A DNA stretch of 64,000 nt, from assembly GCF_025457605.1 (NCBI RefSeq), contig NZ_JAMZFY010000001.1:1612001-1676000 (forward strand). Reading direction: 5' to 3'. Below the pieces are notes generated by a model. That model did no database searches, was not told where the DNA came from, and saw nothing but the letters and a program-made list of their open reading frames with translations. A program made the translations under genes and the position numbers. This DNA comes from Haloarcula laminariae (GTDB lineage Archaea; Halobacteriota; Halobacteria; Halobacteriales; Haloarculaceae). Positions 16,757 through 33,840 of this stretch are shown one piece after another (position 1 is the first letter of the stretch; every line of letters begins with the position of its first letter).

Positions 16757-18147
16757 GCGGCCTCGAACATCTCGATTGCCGCCTCCCGCCGCTCGCTGTG
16801 GTCCACGATGGGGTCCGGATACTCCGGCGCGGCCGAGCGCCGCTGGGTCAGCGAGGCCTCGTGCCACCCGTGGATTATCTCCGCGCCGGCGTCCCGGAGT
16901 TCGGGGACGTAGCGTTTGATGTACTCGGCGTCGGGGTCGTAGCGTTCCCCCTGTGTCATCGGGTTGAAGACACGGAAGTAGGGCTGGGCGTCGGTCCCCG
17001 TCGAGGCGGCCCACTGCCAGCCGCCGTTGTCGTTTGCGGTGTCGTGGTCGACCAGCCGCTCGCGGAACCAGTCGTACCCCTCCCGCCAGTCGATGTGGAG
17101 GTCCTTCGTCAGGAACGAGGCGACTATCATCCGCACGCGGTTGTGCATGAACGCCTCCTCGCGGAGCTGACGCATCCCGGCGTCGACGATTGGATACCCG
17201 GTCTCGCCGTCCTTCCAGGCCTGCAGGGCCTCGGGGTCGTCGTTCCACTGAATCGGGCGCTCGTAGGACTTGTAGTTCGCCGTGACCACGTTCGGGTTCG
17301 CAAAGAGGACCTGCGTGTAGAACTCCCGCCAGGCCAGCTGGGACTGGAACTCGGCGACCGACTCGTCGCGCTCGCTGCCGGGCTCGACGGCACTCCGCGC
17401 CTCGGCGGTCCCCGCGTACACCTCGCGGATGCCGATAGTCCCGAACTTCAGGTGGGGCGACAGATGCGAGGTGTTGTCGTCGTGGGGGTAGTCCCGCCGG
17501 TCGTCGTACCGGTAGACCCCGTCGTCGAGGAACGCGTCGAGCAGCTCGCGGGCCGGCTCGGTGCCCGCGGGCGGCACGTCGGCCTCGGGCTCGTCGAACC
17601 CCAGCTCGGAGAGCGTCGGGAGGTCGGTGTCGTCCTCGAACTCGACGAGCGCGTCGCCCGCCGGCGGGTCGTAGGGCTCGTCCTTCTCCCGGTCCTGCCA
17701 CTTCCGGCCGAAGTAGGTGAAGACGCTGTAGGGGTCGCCGTCGTTGGTCGTAATCTCCCCGGGCTCGTGACAGACCGCGTCCTGGACGGCTTCGCGTGCC
17801 ACGTCTGCGTCGTCCAGCGCCCGGCGGACCGCGGCGTCGCGCTCGCGGGCCAACCCGGAGTAGTCCTTGCCCCACGTCACGCGGTCGGCGCCGTAGTCGG
17901 TCGCCAGGTCGGGCAGCACCTCCCGCGGGTCCCCGCTGGCGACGAGGAGGTCGCTGTCGCGCTCGCGGTACCACTCGCGGAGGCGTGCGAGCGCGTCTAG
18001 CATGAACGCGACCCGGGGCGGGCCTGCGTGGGCGAGTACCTCGTCGTCGAAGACGAACACCGGAAGGACGGGGTCGTCGGCGCTGGCGCGGGCCAGTCCC
18101 GCGTTGTCCGCCGCCCGGAGGTCCCGCCGGTGCCAGTGCAGATACAT
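16741..18147 (-). CDS. phr: Deoxyribodipyrimidine photolyase (class I CPD type)
   Basis: A 468-aa protein. The N-terminal alpha/beta antenna domain starts at MYLHWHRRDLRAADN. The C-terminal FAD domain has HLKFGTIGIREV, QLAWREFYTQ, YKSYERPIQWNDD, GYPIVDAGMRQL, MHNRVRMIVASFLTKDL and GGWQWAASTGTDAQPYFRVFNP, all typical photolyase signatures. It repairs UV pyrimidine dimers using near-UV/blue light. The ATG at 18147 was chosen because the family starts just before the strand L-H-W-H-R-R-D-L; the longer upstream frame overlaps a divergent crotonase promoter. Confidence 0.94.
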   Translation of the reverse strand: MYLHWHRRDLRAADNAGLARASADDPVLPVFVFDDEVLAHAGPPRVAFMLDALARLREWYRERDSDLLVASGDPREVLPDLATDYGADRVTWGKDYSGLARERDAAVRRALDDADVAREAVQDAVCHEPGEITTNDGDPYSVFTYFGRKWQDREKDEPYDPPAGDALVEFEDDTDLPTLSELGFDEPEADVPPAGTEPARELLDAFLDDGVYRYDDRRDYPHDDNTSHLSPHLKFGTIGIREVYAGTAEARSAVEPGSERDESVAEFQSQLAWREFYTQVLFANPNVVTANYKSYERPIQWNDDPEALQAWKDGETGYPIVDAGMRQLREEAFMHNRVRMIVASFLTKDLHIDWREGYDWFRERLVDHDTANDNGGWQWAASTGTDAQPYFRVFNPMTQGERYDPDAEYIKRYVPELRDAGAEIIHGWHEASLTQRRSAAPEYPDPIVDHSERREAAIEMFEAARGDS

Positions 18148-24184: not shown

Positions 24185-24267
24185 ACGTGGCAACTGTCAG
24201 AAGCGATAACCAAAACCGTTCCGGGCCTACCGGGACGCTTTTTCCCTCGTCAGCCCCCAACGCAGGT

Positions 24268-25230
24268 ATGGTCTCTGAGATTTTCGACCCCGACCGCTGG
24301 GAACCGATAGAGCGGTTCGACTTCGCCGACATCACCTACCACCGCTCGACGGAGACGGGCGCGGTCCGCATCGCCATCGACCGCCCGGAGAAACGCAACG
24401 CCTTCCGGCCCGAGACGGTCGACGAACTGTCGGAGGCGCTGGACCACGCCAAGCGGCTCACCGACGTTGGCTGTGTCCTGCTGACGGGGAACGGCCCCTC
24501 CGAGAAGGACGGCGGCTGGGCGTTCTGCTCGGGGGGCGACCAGAGCATCAGGGGCGAGAGCGGGTACGAATACGAGGCGGATGGAGATAGCGAGTCGCGA
24601 AGCGACTCGAACAGCCGAGCGGGGAGCGACGCGACCCGCGAGGCAGCCGTCGGCGACGAGGACGCCCCCGAGAACGTCGGCCGGCTCCACATCCTGGAGG
24701 TCCAGCGCCAGATTCGCCACATCCCCAAACCCGTCGTCGCCGTCGTCCCAGGGTGGGCCGTCGGCGGCGGCCACTCGCTGCACGTGGTCTGTGACCTCAC
24801 CGTCGCCAGCGAGGACCACGCGAAGTTCCTCCAGACCGACCCCGACGTGGGCAGCTTCGACGGCGGCTTCGGCTCGGCGTATCTCGCCCGGCAGGTCGGC
24901 CAGAAGAAGGCCCGCGAGGTGTTCTTCCTCGGGAAGACCTACGACGCCGAGGAGGCCGCCGACATGGGGATGGTCAACGACGTGGTCCCCCACGACGAGC
25001 TGGAGGCGACCGCTATCGAGTGGGCCGAGCGGATGAACGAGAAGTCGCCGACGGCGATGCGGATGCTGAAGTACGCCTTCAACCTCGATTCGGACGGGAT
25101 GGTCGGCCAGCAGGTCTTCGCCGGCGAAGCGACCCGGCTGGCGTACATGACCGACGAGGCCCAGGAGGGGCGGGACGCATTCAACGAGGGCCGAGCGCCC
25201 GACTTCGACGACGTGCCCTGGCACTACTGA
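24268..25230 (+). CDS. menB: 1,4-Dihydroxy-2-naphthoyl-CoA synthase MenB
   Basis: A 320-aa crotonase-fold enzyme that cyclises o-succinylbenzoyl-CoA. MenB marks are FCSGGDQSIRG, the bicarbonate/Asp region GWAVGGGHSLHVVCDLT, DVGSFDGGFGSAYLAR with QKKAREVFFL, and the C-terminal YMTDEAQEGRDAFNEGR, PDFDD. Residues about 103-136 form a Ser/Asp/Arg-rich insertion not found in bacterial MenB; it contains a perfect DNA palindrome (see the repeat at 24591). The start at 24268 was chosen over an upstream in-frame codon by family N-terminus. Confidence 0.94.
   Translation: MVSEIFDPDRWEPIERFDFADITYHRSTETGAVRIAIDRPEKRNAFRPETVDELSEALDHAKRLTDVGCVLLTGNGPSEKDGGWAFCSGGDQSIRGESGYEYEADGDSESRSDSNSRAGSDATREAAVGDEDAPENVGRLHILEVQRQIRHIPKPVVAVVPGWAVGGGHSLHVVCDLTVASEDHAKFLQTDPDVGSFDGGFGSAYLARQVGQKKAREVFFLGKTYDAEEAADMGMVNDVVPHDELEATAIEWAERMNEKSPTAMRMLKYAFNLDSDGMVGQQVFAGEATRLAYMTDEAQEGRDAFNEGRAPDFDDVPWHY
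24591..24609. repeat. Perfect palindrome inside menB
   Basis: CGAGTCGC and GCGACTCG form an 8-bp perfect stem around a GAA loop. It lies in the DNA coding for the extra surface loop of MenB. It is in frame and does not interrupt the gene. Confidence 0.7.
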
Positions 25231-25248: not shown

Positions 25249-26859
25249 TCAGCCTTCGCCGACCATCCGGTCTTCCTCGTCCCACTCGCGCTGGCGCAGT
25301 TCGTACTTCTGGATCTTTCCGGTGGCCGTCGTCGGGAGCGACTCGACGAACTCGACCTCGCTGACGGCTTTGTAGGTCGCCAGGTGTTCCCGGGTGAACG
25401 AGACCAGTTCGTCCCCGTCGGTCCCCGGCTCCTCGGGGTCGCCGGAGGCCGGGACGACGAAGGCCTTTGGCGTTTCGCCCCACTGGCTGCTGGGGGCCGG
25501 GACGACCGCGACCTCGGCGACTTCGTCGTGTTCGTACAGGGTGTCCTCCAGTTCGATGCTGGAGATGTTCTCCCCGCCGGAGATGATGATGTCCTTCTCG
25601 CGGTCCTGAATCGCGAGCATGCCCTTCTCGTTGACGACGGCGAGGTCGCTGGTGTGGAACCACCCCTCGCGCTTTTCGTTGAACGCTTTCTCCGTCACCT
25701 CGGGCTTCTCCCAGTAGCCTTCCATGACCTGGTTGCCACGGACGAGGATTTCGCCGATGGTCTCGTCGTCCCACGGGACCTCGTTGCCATCGTCGTCGAC
25801 GACTGCGATTTCGGTCCCCAGCGGCGCGATGCCCTGCCGCTTTTTGAGCGCGAAACGCTCGTCGCTGTCCTCGTCGATCAGGCGACGGGTCGCGGAGGTG
25901 CCGATGAGCGGGCCCGTCTCGGTCGCACCGTAGAGCTGGCGGAAGTGCCAGCCGAACGTTTCTTCGACGGTTCGGATGATGCTCTCCGGCGGCGCGGCGC
26001 CGGCGGCGGTGACTCGCATCGGGTTGTCGCCCTCGGTGGGGACGTCGTTTTCCTCGTAGTACTCGTCGAGCATGTTGAGCACCGTCGGCGCACAGCAGAG
26101 AAACGAGACGTCTTCCTGGACGATCTGCCGGAAGATATCTTCGGCGTCGACGCCGCGGGTACAGACGTGTTTCGAGCCCATGCCCGTGATGGCGTAGATG
26201 TGGCCCCAGCCGTTGACGTGGAACATCGGCAGCGTCCACAGATAGTTGTCGTCGTCGGTAATCTCGTGGTGAATCGTCACGAGCTGGGCGTGCAGCGACT
26301 CGGTGCGGTGGGTCCGCATGACTCCCTTCGGGTCGCCGGTCGTCCCGGAGGTGTAGTTGATCGTGATGACGTCGTCCTCGTCCATCTCGGGTCGCTCGAA
26401 GGTCCCGTCGGCCTCGACGAGTTCGTCGAAGTCCTCCCAGTCGCCCTCGACTTCGCTGGCGTCGTTCGTAACGAAGACCTCCGTCGGCACCTCGTCGCGG
26501 ACGGCCTCTATCTTCTCGGCGTACTCGTAGTCTGCGTAGATGGCGTCCACGCCGGCGTCTTCGAGGATGTACTCGAAGTCGTCCGGGACGAGACGGTAGT
26601 TCAGCGGCGTGTGGACCGCTCCGAGTTCCATGATGCCGTAGGCCGCTTCGAGGTGGTAATGCGTGTTCGGGTCGAGGACGGCGACGCGGTCGCCCTTCTC
26701 GATGCCCCGGTCCGAAAGCGCCGCGGCGAACCCGTCGACGCGAGCGCCCAGCTCGTCGTACGTGTACCGTTCGCCGGTCGTCGCGACGACCGCCTCCTCG
26801 TCGCCGTAGTGTCGCCGCGCCCGGTCGAGGAAGTCCGTCACCAGAAGTGGCTTCTTCAT
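25249..26859 (-). CDS. Acyl-CoA synthetase (AMP-forming, medium/long-chain type)
   Basis: A 536-aa ANL-superfamily ligase. The P-loop-like motif is INYTSGTTGDPKGVMRTH (about 178-195), then PMFHVNGWGHIY, QLYGATETGPL (A5-type), the hinge-region DREKDIIISGGENIS, and the terminal catalytic Lys in TATGKIQKYELRQ. It activates fatty or aryl acids with ATP to acyl-CoA. It is convergent with menB (19 bp apart), which suggests only positional, not functional, association with menaquinone synthesis; MenE is encoded separately. It has a strong own promoter. Confidence 0.9.
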   Translation of the reverse strand: MKKPLLVTDFLDRARRHYGDEEAVVATTGERYTYDELGARVDGFAAALSDRGIEKGDRVAVLDPNTHYHLEAAYGIMELGAVHTPLNYRLVPDDFEYILEDAGVDAIYADYEYAEKIEAVRDEVPTEVFVTNDASEVEGDWEDFDELVEADGTFERPEMDEDDVITINYTSGTTGDPKGVMRTHRTESLHAQLVTIHHEITDDDNYLWTLPMFHVNGWGHIYAITGMGSKHVCTRGVDAEDIFRQIVQEDVSFLCCAPTVLNMLDEYYEENDVPTEGDNPMRVTAAGAAPPESIIRTVEETFGWHFRQLYGATETGPLIGTSATRRLIDEDSDERFALKKRQGIAPLGTEIAVVDDDGNEVPWDDETIGEILVRGNQVMEGYWEKPEVTEKAFNEKREGWFHTSDLAVVNEKGMLAIQDREKDIIISGGENISSIELEDTLYEHDEVAEVAVVPAPSSQWGETPKAFVVPASGDPEEPGTDGDELVSFTREHLATYKAVSEVEFVESLPTTATGKIQKYELRQREWDEEDRMVGEG

Positions 26860-26967: not shown

Positions 26968-28770
26968 TCAGGTCCGGGTCGTCGTCCCGGGCGGTACGTC
27001 CGCGAGCGGGAGCGTCAGTTTGACGACCGTCCCCGGGTCGGTGTCCGCGATGTCGAACGTCCCGCCGCTGTTGACCGCCATCCAGCGGATGAACCACAGG
27101 CCAAGCCCGGTGGTGTGCTGGAGGTCCGACTCGGTACCCTCGTTGAGCGCGGCCAGTTCGACCTCCGAGAGCCCCTCGCCGTCGTGGCTGACACGGACGA
27201 CTGCGCGGTCGTCGTCGGCCGCCATCGACACCGTGACCTCGACGGTGTCGCCGGCCTCCGCGGCCCGCTCCAGGAGCTCGGTCATCGCCAGTTCGAACGA
27301 GTTGTGGGCGATTGCCCACAGCGAGTCCGGTACGTCGACGGAGAACGTGGCGTTCTCGAACTCCATTCGCGTCTCAGCGACGGCGCGGATGGTCCGGTCG
27401 GCGATATCGATGGGGCCCGTCAGCTCGTCGCCTCCCGGGTCGACGGTGTCGGTGAACTTCCGCGCCGTCTCGGCCAGTTCCAGCAGGTCCTCGCCGGCCT
27501 GTTCGATAGTCGACGCCGCGTCGGTGACTCGCTCGTCCTCGCTGTGCCACTGTATCTGTTCGGCCTGTGCCAGCATCACCAGCAGCTTGTTCCGGAGGTT
27601 GTGTCGCAGGACGCGGTCGAGCACCGAAATCCGGGACTCGCGCTCCCGGTCCTCGGTGATGTCCCGGCTCACGCAGACGACGCCCTCGAACGTCTCTGTC
27701 GGCAACACGCCCACCGTGGTCTGGAACCGCCGCGGGCGCCCGTCCGCGTTCTCGACGACGGTCCCGACGCTCATCTGGTCGGTATCCGAATCGGCCAGGT
27801 TGAGGGCCGCCGCACTGAGCACCTCGGCGTGGTCGGTCCCGAACACGGACGAGACGTGTGCCCCCAGTATCTCGTCTTCCGGCCGCTCGGCGAACTTCTC
27901 CGTCGCGTCGTTCAGCAAGGTGAAGTGGAGCCGCTCGTCGAGCGCGTAGATTGGGTCCCCGGCCGCGGTGACTATCTCCTCGTACCGCCGGAGCAGCCGA
28001 GTCCGCTCGACGCGTTCGGTGACGTCCTCCTGGAAGCCGACGAAGTGGGTCGCCGTGTCCCCCTCGCCGTACACGGGCGATATCTCGAGGTCGTTCCAGA
28101 ACAGCTCGCCGTTCTTCCGGTAGTTCCGCAGCAGCACGCTCACCGGCCGTTGCTCGTCGATAGCGCGCCGGACCTCCCGGACGGGCTCGGTCTCGGTCCC
28201 GGGGCCCTGCAGAAACCGGCAGTTCCGACCGAGCACTTCCGACCGGTCGTAGCCCGTTATCTCGAGGAAGGCGTCGTTGACGTACCGGAGCTCCTGGTCG
28301 CCCCCGGCGTCCGCGATGGAGATGCCCGCCTTCGCGTCGTCCATCGCCCGGGCGAACAGCGCCAGCTGCTCGGACTGGGTTCGGGACCTGAGCAGCGCCG
28401 AGACCCGGTGACGGAACACCCGCTTCGAGGTGGGGACCGAGAGCACGTCGTCGATGTTGTCCCAGTAGGGCTCTGCGGCCTGTTCCGAGTCGTTCGGACC
28501 CAACACAAGGAGGACCGGGAGCCGGACCGAGCCGAGTTCGGCGCGTCGCTCCGCGATACTGTCGGCTATCGACGGGAACGTGGTCGTATCGGCGACACAG
28601 AGGTCGAACTTCGGGAGCGGCTCCGTCCCGTCGGCGGTCCTGACATCGAGTTCCGTCTCGCGCAGCTGCTCGGCCAGCAGCTCCCGGTCGCGGGGATTCG
28701 CGATACACAGCAGGACGCGGGGAGACTTGTTGCGGAGAGGGCCCCCTCCCGGAAACGACGCGTCGATCAT
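26968..28770 (-). CDS. LOV-domain histidine kinase-like photoreceptor
   Basis: A 600-aa soluble protein. Residues about 15-130 form a receiver-like fold without the phospho-Asp pattern. A LOV domain follows (about 140-255) with GRNCRFLQGP (adduct Cys184), flavin contacts Asn216 (NYRKNG), Asn226 (FWND) and Gln247 (VGFQED). A second PAS spans about 262-375. The H-box has His390 (LRHNLRNKL). In the HATPase domain the N-box reads ELLERAAEAG, with Arg502 where Asn binds Mg, while the G2 box (TTGLGLW) is intact. So light sensing looks functional but autokinase activity is doubtful. It overlaps the KaiC gene by one stop-start unit and is co-transcribed with it. Confidence 0.88.
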   Translation of the reverse strand: MIDASFPGGGPLRNKSPRVLLCIANPRDRELLAEQLRETELDVRTADGTEPLPKFDLCVADTTTFPSIADSIAERRAELGSVRLPVLLVLGPNDSEQAAEPYWDNIDDVLSVPTSKRVFRHRVSALLRSRTQSEQLALFARAMDDAKAGISIADAGGDQELRYVNDAFLEITGYDRSEVLGRNCRFLQGPGTETEPVREVRRAIDEQRPVSVLLRNYRKNGELFWNDLEISPVYGEGDTATHFVGFQEDVTERVERTRLLRRYEEIVTAAGDPIYALDERLHFTLLNDATEKFAERPEDEILGAHVSSVFGTDHAEVLSAAALNLADSDTDQMSVGTVVENADGRPRRFQTTVGVLPTETFEGVVCVSRDITEDRERESRISVLDRVLRHNLRNKLLVMLAQAEQIQWHSEDERVTDAASTIEQAGEDLLELAETARKFTDTVDPGGDELTGPIDIADRTIRAVAETRMEFENATFSVDVPDSLWAIAHNSFELAMTELLERAAEAGDTVEVTVSMAADDDRAVVRVSHDGEGLSEVELAALNEGTESDLQHTTGLGLWFIRWMAVNSGGTFDIADTDPGTVVKLTLPLADVPPGTTTRT

Positions 28771-30224
28771 CAGTCGGGTTGCCGTGTCGGCGTTCCCGTC
28801 AGCACCCCTCTGAGGTCCGAGAGCGCCTCCCCGATGTGGATGCCGTCGTCGGTGATACGGAACGCGCGCAGCGTCGACTCGAAGTCGCCGAACCGCTTTT
28901 TCAGCACGCCGATGGCCTTCCGTATCTCGCCGCCGACCTCGATGTAGCGGATGAACACCACGTTGTCAGCGAGATAGCTGACCCGGGAGTCCGAGGCCTG
29001 AAAGGTGCCCGTGACCGACGAGAGCTCGTCGGTCAGCGCCACGGTGACGCCCATGTTCCGGAGGTAGCGACAGAGCGCGTGCAGCTCCTGTCGGAGTTCG
29101 GTGTCCGGGTTCCCCAGCGCGAGCTGGTAGCCCGCCGTCCCGTCGAGGAGGACGAACTCGACGCCGCGCTCCTCGACGGCGAGCCGGACCTGATGGGCGA
29201 ACTCGTCCGCGGAGATGCTCAGCGGCTCGACCTCGTGTACCTCGAAGTGGCCCTCCTCGCGCAGCTCGCTGACGCCCATCCCGATGGCGTCCGACCGGTG
29301 GCTGAAACTGTGCTCGGACTCCTCGAACAGGTACGCCGCCACCTTCTCGCCCCGGCGGGCGCTCGCCCGGGCCAGCGCGGTCCCGGTCGTCGACTTGCCG
29401 ACCCCGCTCGGCCCGCTGAGGAGGGTGACGCTCCCCCGTTCGATACCGCCGCCGAGCAGGCCGTCGAGCGCGTCGATGTCGGTCGAGAGGGACTCGTACT
29501 CGAAGGGCCGGTCGTGGTCCTCCGGGACCAGGCTCGGGAACACGGAGATACCCCGGCCGCCGTCGATGCGGATGCCGTGGGCCCCGCTGTGAAAGCCCGA
29601 CCCGCGGAACTTCTCGACTTCGAGTTCGCGGCCCCGCTCGGTCCGCCGCATCGTTATCGAGCCGTCGGCGAGGTACTGTAGGTCCTCGTCGGACTGCTCA
29701 GCGGTCGACTGCGTGGTAAACAGCGTCGTTATCCCGCGCTCTTTCAGGTAGCTCATCAGCGACGCGGCGGTGCGCTTGAACTGGTACTCGTCGGGCGTGA
29801 GATGGCGCAGGAGCGTCAGGGGGTCGATGAACACCCGGTCGGGTTCGTGGTTCTCGATGGCGTCGCTGATTCGGGAGACGATGTCGCTCCCCTCCACTTC
29901 GCTCGGGCCGAACACCGTGTAGTTGCCGTCGTCCATGAACTGCGTCGCGGAGGGGCTCATGTCCTCGATGACGACGTCGTCGAGGTCGAACCCCAGGGCC
30001 GCCGCGTTCGTCGCGATATCCTTCGCCGTCTCCTCGAACGCGAAGTACAGGGCCGTCTCGCCGGCCGCCGCGCCGGCGCTCAGAAAGTGATAGCCCACTA
30101 TCGTCTTGCCGGTTCCCGAGTCGCCCCGGATGGTGTAGCTCCGCTCGTCGATGAACCCGCCCTGAAGAATCGCGTCCAGCCCGGCGAGACCCGAGGAGAT
30201 ACGGGTACTTTCTCGCGAACTCAT
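28770..30224 (-). CDS. Double-domain KaiC-like RecA-superfamily ATPase
   Basis: A 484-aa protein with two KaiC domains. The first has Walker A GDSGTGKT (34-41), the catalytic Glu pair in FAFEET and Walker B VFIDPL. The second has GPSGVGKS (271-278), YLFEES and VLLDGT. Both sites therefore look active. The C-terminal KaiC tail with the Ser/Thr phosphorylation sites was not identified. Haloarchaeal KaiC homologues (Cir proteins) are known to show light-cycle-dependent expression. This one is upstream in an operon with the LOV protein. Confidence 0.88.
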   Translation of the reverse strand: MSSRESTRISSGLAGLDAILQGGFIDERSYTIRGDSGTGKTIVGYHFLSAGAAAGETALYFAFEETAKDIATNAAALGFDLDDVVIEDMSPSATQFMDDGNYTVFGPSEVEGSDIVSRISDAIENHEPDRVFIDPLTLLRHLTPDEYQFKRTAASLMSYLKERGITTLFTTQSTAEQSDEDLQYLADGSITMRRTERGRELEVEKFRGSGFHSGAHGIRIDGGRGISVFPSLVPEDHDRPFEYESLSTDIDALDGLLGGGIERGSVTLLSGPSGVGKSTTGTALARASARRGEKVAAYLFEESEHSFSHRSDAIGMGVSELREEGHFEVHEVEPLSISADEFAHQVRLAVEERGVEFVLLDGTAGYQLALGNPDTELRQELHALCRYLRNMGVTVALTDELSSVTGTFQASDSRVSYLADNVVFIRYIEVGGEIRKAIGVLKKRFGDFESTLRAFRITDDGIHIGEALSDLRGVLTGTPTRQPD

Positions 30225-30360: not shown

Positions 30361-31320
30361 ATGAGTACCGCGACGCCGGACATCTCGAAACGCAAGGCGT
30401 GGCTCATGGCCGCGAGGCCACAGACGCTCCCCGCCGGCGCCGCGCCGGTGGTCGTCGGCGCCGGGCTCGCCGTCCACGCGGACGTCTTCGAACCGCTCGT
30501 GGCGCTCGCGGCGCTGGTCGGGGCCTTGCTCATACAGGTCGGAACGAACTTCGCGAACGACTACTACGACGCGGTCAAGGGCGCCGACACGGACGAACGC
30601 GAGGGGTTCACCCGCGTGACGGCCGGGGGGCTCATCGAGCCCGCGTCGGTCAAGCGGGCGATGGTCCTGACCTACGCGCTCGCCGTCGCCGTCGGCGTCG
30701 CGCTGGTGGCTATCGGCGGCGTCCCCATCGTCGTCGTCGGCCTCTCGGGCATCGCCGCGGGCGTCCTCTACACCGGAGGGCCGTTCCCCTACGGCTACCG
30801 CGGCCTGGGTGACCTCTTCGTCTTCGTCTACTTCGGGCTGGTCGCCGTCACCGGCACCTACTACGTCCAGGCCGTGGCGAGCATGCCCGCCGTCGGTGCG
30901 TTCCCGACGACGCTCCCCGCCGGGTCGGTCCCGGTCGACGCCGTGGTCGCCAGCCTCCCGGCCGCGGGGCTCTCGACGGCCATCCTCGTCGTCAACAACG
31001 TCCGGGACCGCGAGACGGACATGGCCGCGGGCAAGAAGACCCTCGTCGTGTATCTGGGCTACGGACCGAGCCGCGTGCAATACCTCGTCCTCGTCGGCAT
31101 GGCCTACGTGGTTCCGGTCCTGTTCGCGCTGGACCCGCGCTACGGCCTGCCGGCGCTGGCGCCGCTGCTGACGCTCCCCCTCGCTGTGGGGACGAGCAGG
31201 ACCGTCCTCACCCGGACCGACGGCGAGGCGCTGAACCCCGCCCTCGAACGGGTCGGCCAGACGCTCTTTGCCCACTCACTGCTCTTTGCCGCGGGGCTGG
31301 CGCTCCCGACACTGCTATGA
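30361..31320 (+). CDS. menA: 1,4-Dihydroxy-2-naphthoate polyprenyltransferase MenA
   Basis: A 319-aa UbiA-family membrane enzyme with eight or nine helices. The prenyl-diphosphate binding motifs are [16 protein letters not shown] (first DxxxD type) and [16 protein letters not shown] (second). [18 protein letters not shown] is typical of MenA. It attaches the isoprenoid tail to dihydroxynaphthoate at the membrane. Its stop overlaps menC by ATGA. The ATG at 30361 follows a 136-bp gap from the divergent KaiC gene. Confidence 0.93.
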
Positions 31321-32360
31321 ACACCGCGCCGTTCTCGCTCCCCCTTTCGAGCCCGCTCGCGACGGCTAGCGGGACCATCGAGGCCCGTGAGGGGGTCGTC
31401 GTCCGCTACGACCACCGCGGCGAGACCGGCGTCGGCGAGGCGACGCCGCTGCCCGGCTGGACCGAATCGCTGAGCGACTGCCAGGCCGCGCTCGACACCG
31501 CCGCGGACGCCGACCGCCGGGGCGGCCACACCGCCGCGATGCTGGAACTCGCGGCCGACAGCGTCCCCGCGGCGCGCCACGGCTTCGCGACGGCGCTGCT
31601 CGACGCCGACGCGCGGGCCGACGACGTCCCGCTCTACCGGTGGTTCGACGCCGACCGTCGCTGTGAGAGCGTCCCGGTCAACGCCACTGTGGGCGACAGC
31701 GACCCCGACGCGACCGCCGAGGCGGTCGCCCGGGCGGTCGGGAGCGGCTTCGACTGCTGCAAGCTGAAAGTCGGCGCCCGCTCGGTCGACGAGGATATCG
31801 AGCGGCTCCGCGCCGTCCGCGAGCGCGTCGGCGACGTGGCGCTACGGGCGGACGCCAACGGCGCGTGGACCCGCGACCAGGCGGCCCGGGCGTTCGAGGC
31901 CTTCGCCGACCTCGGCGTCGACTACGTCGAACAGCCGCTCCCGGCCGACGACCTGGCCGGTCACGCCGACCTGCGGGGCGGTCCGGTCGGCGTCGCGCTG
32001 GACGAGTCCCTCATCGACGCGCGGGCGGATGCGGTGCTCTCGGCGGACGCCGCCGACGTGCTGATACTGAAACCGATGGTGGTCGGCGGGCCGGGCAACG
32101 CCCACACGCTCGCGCTTCGGGCCCGCGACCGGGGCGTAGAGCCGGTGGTGACGACCACCGTCGACGGCGTCGTCGCCCGGCTGGCGGCGCTGCACGTCGC
32201 CGCCGCGGTCCCCGATATCGGCGCCTGCGGGCTGGCGACGGGCGACCGGCTGGCGCGGGACCTCGCGCCGGACCCTGCGACGGTGACTGACGGCGAGATG
32301 ACCGTCCCCCAGGGGGACGGACTCGGTATCGACCCCTCGGAGGTGACGCCGGATGCGTGA
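31317..32360 (+). CDS. menC: o-Succinylbenzoate synthase MenC
   Basis: A 347-aa enolase-superfamily enzyme. The KxK catalytic motif is CKLKVG (about 142-147) and metal ligands follow in RADANGAW, YVEQPL and ALDESL. It dehydrates SHCHC to o-succinylbenzoate. It sits between menA and menE with overlaps on both sides (the menE ATG is eight bases inside the end), so this is a tight menA-C-E operon. It is longer than bacterial MenC because of the N-terminal capping domain. Confidence 0.92.
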   Translation: MNTAPFSLPLSSPLATASGTIEAREGVVVRYDHRGETGVGEATPLPGWTESLSDCQAALDTAADADRRGGHTAAMLELAADSVPAARHGFATALLDADARADDVPLYRWFDADRRCESVPVNATVGDSDPDATAEAVARAVGSGFDCCKLKVGARSVDEDIERLRAVRERVGDVALRADANGAWTRDQAARAFEAFADLGVDYVEQPLPADDLAGHADLRGGPVGVALDESLIDARADAVLSADAADVLILKPMVVGGPGNAHTLALRARDRGVEPVVTTTVDGVVARLAALHVAAAVPDIGACGLATGDRLARDLAPDPATVTDGEMTVPQGDGLGIDPSEVTPDA

Positions 32361-33840
32361 GCCGGTCGAGTGGCCGACGCGGGACCCCCTCACCCACCGC
32401 GCGGCGACGACGCCCGAGCGGACCGCCGTCGTGGACGCAGACCGCGACACGGACCGGCGCTACCGCGAACTCGATGCCGCCGTCGACCGCGTCGCGGCGG
32501 CGTTCGACGCCCACACTCCGGGGGCGGGCGGCCGCGTCGCGGCGCTGGTCGACACCCGGCCCGCGGTCGCCGAGTTGCTGTACGGGGCGATGCGGACCGG
32601 ACGGACGTTCGCGCCGCTGAACGTCGACCTGGACGCCGACACGCTCCGGGACCAAGTCGACGCGCTCGGCGCCGACCTGCTGGTCTGTGAGCGCGATACC
32701 GAACCGCTGGCGACGGCGGTCGCCGACTGCCCCGTCGTCTCCGTCGACGAGCCCACAAGCGGGGCCGACGGGCCGCTGGCGGACGCGGTGCCGGCCCCGG
32801 ACGTGACGCCGGCCGAGCTATCGCGGGACGACACCGCGCTGATTCTGTTCACCTCCGGGACGACGAGCGACCCGAAGGGCGTCCGCCTCACGCTGGGGAA
32901 CCTCGTCGCGAGCGCGACGGCGTCGGCGTTCCGGCTGGGCGTCGTCCCCGGGGACCGGTGGCTGGTCTGTCTGCCGACCTACCACATGGGCGGGCTGGCA
33001 CCGTTCGTCCGCTGTGTGCTGTACGGCAGTACCGCCGTCGTCCAGCGGGAGTTCGACCCGGCGGCGACGGCCGAGGCGATGGCCGAGCGGAGCGTGACGG
33101 GCGTCTCGCTCGTCCCGACGATGTGCAAGCGGCTGCTCGATGCGGGCTGGGAACCGACCGACGCCCTCCGCTTTGTCCTGCTGGGCGGCGGGCCGGCGTC
33201 CGCCGACCTCGTCGACCGCTGTGAGCGGCGGGGCGTGCCGGTCTGCCCGACCTACGGGATGACCGAGACTTCCTCGCAGATTGCGACGGCGCTGCCCGGG
33301 ACGGCGTTCGCACACGGCGGGACCGTCGGCCAGCCGCTGGTCAACACGACCGTGACCGTCCTCGCAGACGGCGAGCCGGCCGAGCCGGGCCAGCGGGGCG
33401 AACTCGTCGTCTCGGGCCCGACGGTGACGCCGGGGTATCTGGACGACGGCGAGACCGCGGCGGCGTTCAGCGACCGGGGCTTTCACACCGGCGACCTAGG
33501 CTACCGCGACGGCGACGGGCACCTCTGGGTCGTCGGCCGCGCGGACGACCGAATCGTCACCGGCGGCGAGAACGTCGACGCGGGGGCGGTCGCCGCGGCG
33601 ATTCGGGACTGTCCCGGCGTCGAGGACGCTGCGGTGGTCGGCCTCCCCGACGAGGAGTGGGGCCAGCGAGTCGCCGCGCTGGTCGCCGGCGAGACCGACG
33701 CCGAGACCGTCCTGGACCACTGCCGGGCCGAACTCGCCCGCTACGAGGTTCCGAAGACGGTGCAGGTCGTCGACGTACTGCCGCGGACGCCGTCGGGGAC
33801 GGTCGACCGCGAGGCCGTCCGTCGGCGGTTGGCGGCGTAG
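32353..33840 (+). CDS. menE: o-Succinylbenzoate-CoA ligase MenE
   Basis: A 495-aa ANL ligase. Motifs in order: LILFTSGTTSDPKGVRLTL (about 156-174), PTYHMGGLAPFVRC, PTYGMTETSSQI, HTGDLGYRDGDGHLWVVGRADDRI and the catalytic Lys near DVLPRTPSGTVDREAV. In the latter the usual Lys is replaced by Val: the canonical P(R/K)TxxGKxxR reads PRTPSGTVDR here, so the adenylation half may differ. Placed after menC in operon, so MenE by context. Confidence 0.88.
   Translation: MREPVEWPTRDPLTHRAATTPERTAVVDADRDTDRRYRELDAAVDRVAAAFDAHTPGAGGRVAALVDTRPAVAELLYGAMRTGRTFAPLNVDLDADTLRDQVDALGADLLVCERDTEPLATAVADCPVVSVDEPTSGADGPLADAVPAPDVTPAELSRDDTALILFTSGTTSDPKGVRLTLGNLVASATASAFRLGVVPGDRWLVCLPTYHMGGLAPFVRCVLYGSTAVVQREFDPAATAEAMAERSVTGVSLVPTMCKRLLDAGWEPTDALRFVLLGGGPASADLVDRCERRGVPVCPTYGMTETSSQIATALPGTAFAHGGTVGQPLVNTTVTVLADGEPAEPGQRGELVVSGPTVTPGYLDDGETAAAFSDRGFHTGDLGYRDGDGHLWVVGRADDRIVTGGENVDAGAVAAAIRDCPGVEDAAVVGLPDEEWGQRVAALVAGETDAETVLDHCRAELARYEVPKTVQVVDVLPRTPSGTVDREAVRRRLAA

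Follow-up and report, generated by a model that had tools for sequence, protein, structure and literature searches.

A KaiC ATPase paired with a predicted pseudo-receiver and LOV protein in the menaquinone locus of Haloarcula laminariae

Introduction

What does a KaiC ATPase do beside a gene for a blue-light sensor? Two adjoining genes of the haloarchaeon Haloarcula laminariae raise this question, one encoding a double-domain KaiC and the other a protein with a LOV domain. They lie in a 64,000-nucleotide stretch of the genome (contig C1:1612001-1676000, 3.69 Mb), called the window below. A preliminary description of the locus had read the pair as a light-input module for KaiC. That reading is fair in that the pair is conserved; it has to be modified in that LOV is just one of several sensors found in such partners, the pairing is not obligatory, and the kinase is probably inactive. 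We found that the window pair is one case of a wider module made of KaiC and a predicted pseudo-receiver domain (PsR), whose sensors include LOV among others. The pair is a real, conserved, and by its residues light-sensing variant of this KaiC-partner module, for which we infer a mechanism of regulation by contact.

Results

The KaiC stop codon and the start codon of the LOV gene, which lies downstream on the minus strand, overlap by one base (TGATG), consistent with the stop-start overlap described before. The parts of the two genes are as follows.

28770..30224, minus strand: two-domain KaiC ATPase, 484 amino acids (Pfam, alignment, PDB matches)
30102..30125, minus strand: first Walker A motif of KaiC, GDSGTGKT, residues 34-41 (alignment)
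29391..29414, minus strand: second Walker A motif of KaiC, GPSGVGKS, residues 271-278 (alignment)
26968..28770, minus strand: PsR-LOV-PAS-DHp-degenerate CA protein, 600 amino acids (open reading frame and domain scans)
28366..28722, minus strand: predicted PsR domain, residues ~17-135 (predicted fold, profile alignment)
27985..28362, minus strand: LOV domain, residues ~137-262 (domain scans, PDB matches)
28219..28221, minus strand: Cys184, LOV adduct cysteine (motif)
27637..27978, minus strand: second PAS domain, residues ~265-378 (Pfam)
27421..27636, minus strand: DHp (H-box) helices, His390 in RVLRHNLRNKL retained (alignment)
26995..27408, minus strand: degenerate HATPase (CA) domain, Arg502 for the N-box Asn and His529 for the G1 Asp

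The KaiC protein has two KaiC domains (Pfam PF06745, E 2.6e-68, in two stretches), and KaiC proteins are its top hits in the PDB (E 1.1e-57). Its Walker A residues are G34..K40T41 and G271..K277S278, and the catalytic Glu65 and Glu301/302 are invariant in all 16 aligned sequences, so that the sites of both halves are intact, as the preliminary description had it.

That description overlooked two features of the LOV protein, its N-terminal domain and the degenerate ATP site of its kinase domain. A Pfam scan of residues 17-135 gave no match at E≤0.1, and 0 of 11 PsR members match the receiver family PF00072 at that threshold, one member having a marginal match to an unrelated domain of unknown function. 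An AlphaFold2 model of the stand-alone domain, made from 11 sequences, reached a predicted local distance difference test score (pLDDT) of 91.8 and best matched receiver domains in the PDB (VIA-align Z up to 16.8, root-mean-square deviation 2.0 over 125 residues). Profile alignment to the receivers of PleD showed that the acidic pair, the Thr/Ser, and the Lys are replaced, while the beta-3 Asp (Asp61) is kept. As a receiver fold with these active-site residues replaced, the N-terminal domain is, on the evidence of this model, a pseudo-receiver. We used only the stand-alone model, because the full-length model was of low confidence (pLDDT 69.5, with ~50 for the PsR part). The N-terminus of SasA has a KaiB-like fold; the modeled domain has a receiver-type fold, and no SasA-type KaiB-like thioredoxin fold was found in it.

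To follow this domain across genomes, we used a profile built from 17 PsR domains. At E≤0.01, it has only two matches in the own genome, one immediately downstream of each of that genome's two double KaiCs. A search of 57 family genomes at E≤1e-6 gave 57 PsR places (3 of them themselves rows of the profile), and the same genomes have 46 double KaiCs. For 47 of these PsR places a KaiC is no more than 3 kb away, with the PsR downstream on the strand of KaiC in 44 and divergent from it in 3, and 43 of the 46 double KaiCs have a PsR; the ten distant places comprise three beside KaiC fragments and seven that are not. KaiCs without a PsR also occur, some as tandem pairs (L158, L159). Two double KaiCs stand a few kb apart in some haloarchaeal genomes (L158, L159, L230, L231), with one PsR partner or none within the fetched stretch. 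Related KaiC loci from named genomes number at least 21, bacteria among them, and among the matches listed a PsR protein lies near KaiC in loci of Anaerolineae, Hyella, Phormidesmis, Methylococcaceae, Halothiobacillus, and Brevinematales.

What follows the PsR varies, both in sensors (PAS, LOV, or GAF) and in outputs, which include histidine kinases, PAS-GGDEF-EAL (L100), GAF-GGDEF-EAL (L106), and GAF-BAT-HTH_10 (L056). After removal of near-identical KaiCs and of loci with more than one PsR partner (63 reduced to 47), KaiC distances gave a correlation of r 0.75 against those of the PsR and of r 0.47 against those of the kinase (47 pairs; compared by size alone). Because the PsR is the constant part beside KaiC and tracks KaiC distances better, its association suggests that it is the KaiC-facing part of the partner.

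The LOV domain of the window protein matches the NCBIfam YtvA family, under that family's cut-off, and its closest PDB matches are LOV photoreceptors. The adduct cysteine in GxNCRFLQ and the flavin-contacting Asn, Asn, and Gln are all present, with Cys184, Asn216, Asn226, and Gln247 at exactly the positions first assigned to them, and from these conserved residues a Cys184-flavin adduct is predicted to form under blue light. Among the 26 PsR partners with an intact LOV domain, drawn from a set of 91 loci, Cys184, Arg185, Gln188, Asn216, Asn226, and Gln247 are retained in all 26; position 183 is Asn in 19 and Asp in 7. In comparisons with the orthologous loci L045-L047, the ratio of nonsynonymous to synonymous substitution rates (dN/dS) of the LOV part was lower than that of any other part of the window protein (0.15-0.22). 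The only other LOV motif of the own genome (L195:3539-5446) is in a 635-amino-acid multi-domain protein with no KaiC nearby, which by eye resembles Bat-type sensors.

LOV motifs are found near KaiC beyond the window too, and far more often than chance would give. Thirteen of the 92 in the 57 family genomes have a double KaiC no more than 3.5 kb away, where uniform placement would give 0.25 (a rough Poisson null that ignores relatedness); they touch 12 of the 46 KaiCs. Counted from the PsR, 17 of 57 places have a LOV motif behind them at a distance of up to 2 kb and in the same orientation. A KaiC tree of 73 rows needs 10 or more changes of the LOV state. This tree left out L050, L051, L092, L093, L105, L155, L158, L159, and L161 (fragments or no PsR partner) as well as loci without a KaiC or PsR match, and L068 was scored on it as having no LOV (its LOV being in another frame). 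Looking for the gene pair elsewhere, as had been suggested, turned up five orthologous loci in the genus (L045-L049), and LOV-bearing partners adjoin double KaiCs in other haloarchaeal families too.

The kinase part of the window protein is degenerate. To label the protein a LOV histidine kinase is misleading: the HATPase domain is weak (38.5 bits, Pfam), its N-box reads ELLERAAE, with Arg502 for Asn, and its G1 box reads SHDGEG, with His529 for Asp. The N-box Asn and the G1 Asp act in ATP binding by histidine kinases; with these residues gone, autophosphorylation would be improbable, and the kinase part is probably inactive. The H-box His390 (RVLRHNLRNKL) is present, and this His is retained across partners. 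Among the 48 HATPase places of the own genome, the window protein ranks 46th, and the N-box Asn is kept in 46, the other exception being L212. By manual row count, the N-box Asn is absent in 9 of 26 LOV partners versus 1 of 52 partners without a LOV motif, many of these 52 coming from near-identical species, and the sole such case (L048) has a damaged LOV. On the KaiC tree, about four N-box losses are inferred, all in LOV lineages. We considered the claim that LOV brings kinase loss and do not regard it as established, as an independent-pairs test has too few events. A CA dN/dS of 0.44-0.55 against L045-L047 points to a domain that is relaxed but not free. The second double KaiC of the own genome (L044, C1:1754500-1763500) adjoins a PsR-PAS-histidine kinase with intact ATP-site motifs, forming a natural paralogue control within the same genome. 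Between the window protein (26968-28770) and L048:4955-6748, the CA domains are 79% identical and the PsR domains 51%, a contrast that may reflect recombination inside the gene.

The pair stands inside a menaquinone cluster, in the order menB, acyl-CoA ligase, LOV, KaiC, menA, menC-like, and menE-like. Its neighbors are listed here.

24187..25230, plus strand: menB, flanking menaquinone gene
25249..26859, minus strand: acyl-CoA ligase, between menB and the LOV gene
30361..33840, plus strand: menA, menC-like, and menE-like cluster, divergent from KaiC

L045-L049 retain the pair beside menA, menC, and menE; menB adjoins it in L048 and L049, and the fetched stretches of L045-L047 end at or just past the ligase. 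The menA gene itself is present in 32 of 32 genus genomes. The photolyase pointed out in the preliminary description is indeed in the window (17677-18141, minus strand; the genome has three photolyase-family matches in all), but it is ~9 kb off and has no visible link to the pair, and we dropped such a link on that separation.

Discussion

We propose, with the balance about even, that the two genes encode a two-protein module in which the LOV protein is a PsR-docked, light-gated, kinase-independent regulator of KaiC. The LOV protein would attach to the KaiC hexamer through its N-terminal PsR, and blue light would produce the Cys184-flavin adduct, whose shape change could travel through the PAS and DHp helices. 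The LOV protein, probably lacking autophosphorylation, would then alter the ATPase or autokinase state of KaiC by contact, with Ser416 as the likely KaiC phosphosite, and KaiC would act in turn on putative downstream targets. The gene structure, domains, intact KaiC sites, intact LOV residues, degenerate kinase, and statistical link of PsR to KaiC are observed, whereas we infer physical contact, the direction of signaling, and the response to light.

Several observations pull the other way. L048, a close relative that keeps the KaiC pair, has Tyr for the LOV Cys, and in comparison with it the order of dN/dS is reversed (LOV 0.45, CA 0.27). The independent-pairs test gave no significant link between LOV and the loss of the kinase (median p 0.5), and the kept H-box His leaves phosphotransfer from another kinase possible. 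L049 has both KaiC and an intact kinase. Two PsR-LOV-PAS-kinase orthologues, L267 and L276, have no adjoining KaiC while their N-box and G1 are intact, and a search of G029, the genome of L267, gave no double KaiC at E≤1e-60. Strict co-dependence of KaiC and LOV is ruled out by L267, L276, and the Cys-less L048, and the pairing is therefore not obligatory. In a tree of 11 partners, L267 groups with L049 (99/99) and L276 stands beside the window clade (92/95), with the KaiC-bearing L151 outside; by this placement, KaiC was probably lost twice in the orthologue group. No member of the group lacks both KaiC and an intact kinase, though numbers are small. One locus offers natural variants with KaiC and a live kinase, KaiC and a dead kinase, or a live kinase and no KaiC.

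An unlikely but serious alternative is a SasA-like output kinase, in which KaiC would be upstream of the LOV protein, a phosphoryl signal would pass to a response regulator, and light would just tune it. The H-box His kept in partners fits this, as do the intact kinases of most partners, among them all 51 that have no LOV motif when L048 is set aside (manual row count). The GGDEF-EAL and HTH outputs suggest KaiC as the source of the information and the partner as its recipient, and KaiC-kinase pairs are interpreted that way in the sections of PMC3164672 covered here. The window protein, however, lacks the N-box Asn and the G1 Asp, making autophosphorylation unlikely in its clade.

It is improbable that the main role of the LOV protein lies with the menaquinone locus, with KaiC an accessory that comes and goes. 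This reading draws on the 16 further menA regions fetched from the genus, five of which have a LOV protein in the men cluster and no KaiC beside it (L262, L263, L267, L276, and L277, where L262, L263, and L277 carry other LOV kinases). It also fits the position of the window pair and all of L045-L049 inside the cluster, and a promoter region divergent with menA. Yet menA occurs in only L045-L049 of the 90 KaiC regions searched, and the association of PsR with KaiC is generally unlinked to men.

It is very doubtful that KaiC and LOV make up a genuine light-entrained timer or hourglass. Homology to cyanobacterial KaiC speaks for it, as do the four Haloferax kaiC homologues that follow light and dark (PMC3941300, in the part covered) and Ser416, which stands at the cyanobacterial S431 position and is invariant in 16 of 16 aligned KaiC sequences. 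Against it, the T432 position holds Tyr417, so that the phosphosite pair is incomplete, and KaiB (PF07689) has no match in the own genome and none above the family cut-off in any of 60 genomes, in a search whose Synechococcus control gave a match. We rejected a circadian clock as the leading explanation on these two grounds, and a clock function of the pair is unsupported. That the two genes are mere neighbors without functional contact is hardly credible: KaiC is absent beside L267 and L276, but PsR-KaiC adjacency spans haloarchaeal families and bacteria.

Returning to the contact-based regulator, we offer a more tentative extension, in which the PsR would be a dedicated KaiC adaptor wiring hexamers to swappable sensors and outputs in archaea and bacteria alike, the window clade would have a photoreceptor that lost its own kinase activity and drives KaiC solely by contact, and the PsR may read quinone redox. 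The last element is suggested because the genes lie inside a menaquinone cluster and because quinones bind the pseudo-receivers of the cyanobacterial clock proteins CikA and KaiA (reported in the sections of PMC12632262 covered).

Comparison with known systems

For known systems, we relied on parts of PMC3164672, PMC3941300, PMC12632262, PMC12202551, PMC5520375, PMC5847659, PMC13286277, PMC6627678, PMC11832031, PMC10359499, and PMC7824242. Literature searches, judged by listings, abstracts, and the passages covered, turned up no published LOV-KaiC pair; Makarova 2017, on KaiC hubs in archaea, may already cover part of the PsR-KaiC association. The closest precedent is a 2011 proposal that certain kinases, transcribed together with kaiC, interact with KaiC and carry an N-terminal module; it also noted GGDEF/EAL neighbors (PMC3164672). 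Its Ramlibacter pair, Rta_04330 KaiC and Rta_04340 histidine kinase, and their relatives are alike in having kaiC followed by a kinase with a proposed KaiC-binding N-terminus and no KaiB, and differ in that neither LOV nor a dead kinase is described in the part covered. That proposal compared the N-terminal module both to KaiB/SasA and to a receiver; between our PsR profile and Ramlibacter-type (RtaNt) N-termini, hhalign probabilities were 10% and 3%, values that do not establish a common origin.

In Haloferax volcanii, cirC, the only double KaiC of Haloferax, adjoins a sensor gene named fixL, and its transcripts are light/dark-regulated (PMC3941300); it resembles the window pair as a double KaiC by a sensor gene, but the neighbor is mentioned in passing, with no LOV or PsR reported in the text covered. 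The CikA and KaiA pseudo-receivers are similar in being PsR domains that regulate a KaiC system: that of CikA binds KaiB, and that of KaiA affects how KaiA stimulates KaiC (PMC12632262, as far as covered). The window module differs in that no KaiB was found in its genome and its PsR is N-terminal in a sensor protein; the receiver fold is the only kinship seen. Archaeal LOV proteins from Lake Diamante share the occurrence of LOV in REC/PAS/GAF/histidine-kinase architectures, and one haloarchaeal LOV domain photocycles in up to 3 M salt; that study differs in that its main text, in the portion covered, mentions KaiC, operon, or genomic context 0 times (PMC12202551).

KaiC-kinase pairs with an N-terminal interaction module had thus already been proposed, and what is added here is a version with LOV, a probably dead kinase, and the recognition of the PsR. 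According to the sections covered, the input path of the Synechococcus clock has yielded no photoreceptor to date (PMC5520375), and the authors of PMC12632262 know of no published work on archaeal pseudo-receiver function. A LOV-partnered KaiC, a PsR that follows KaiC, and the variants at one locus would make both the clock-photoreceptor and the archaeal-PsR questions directly testable.

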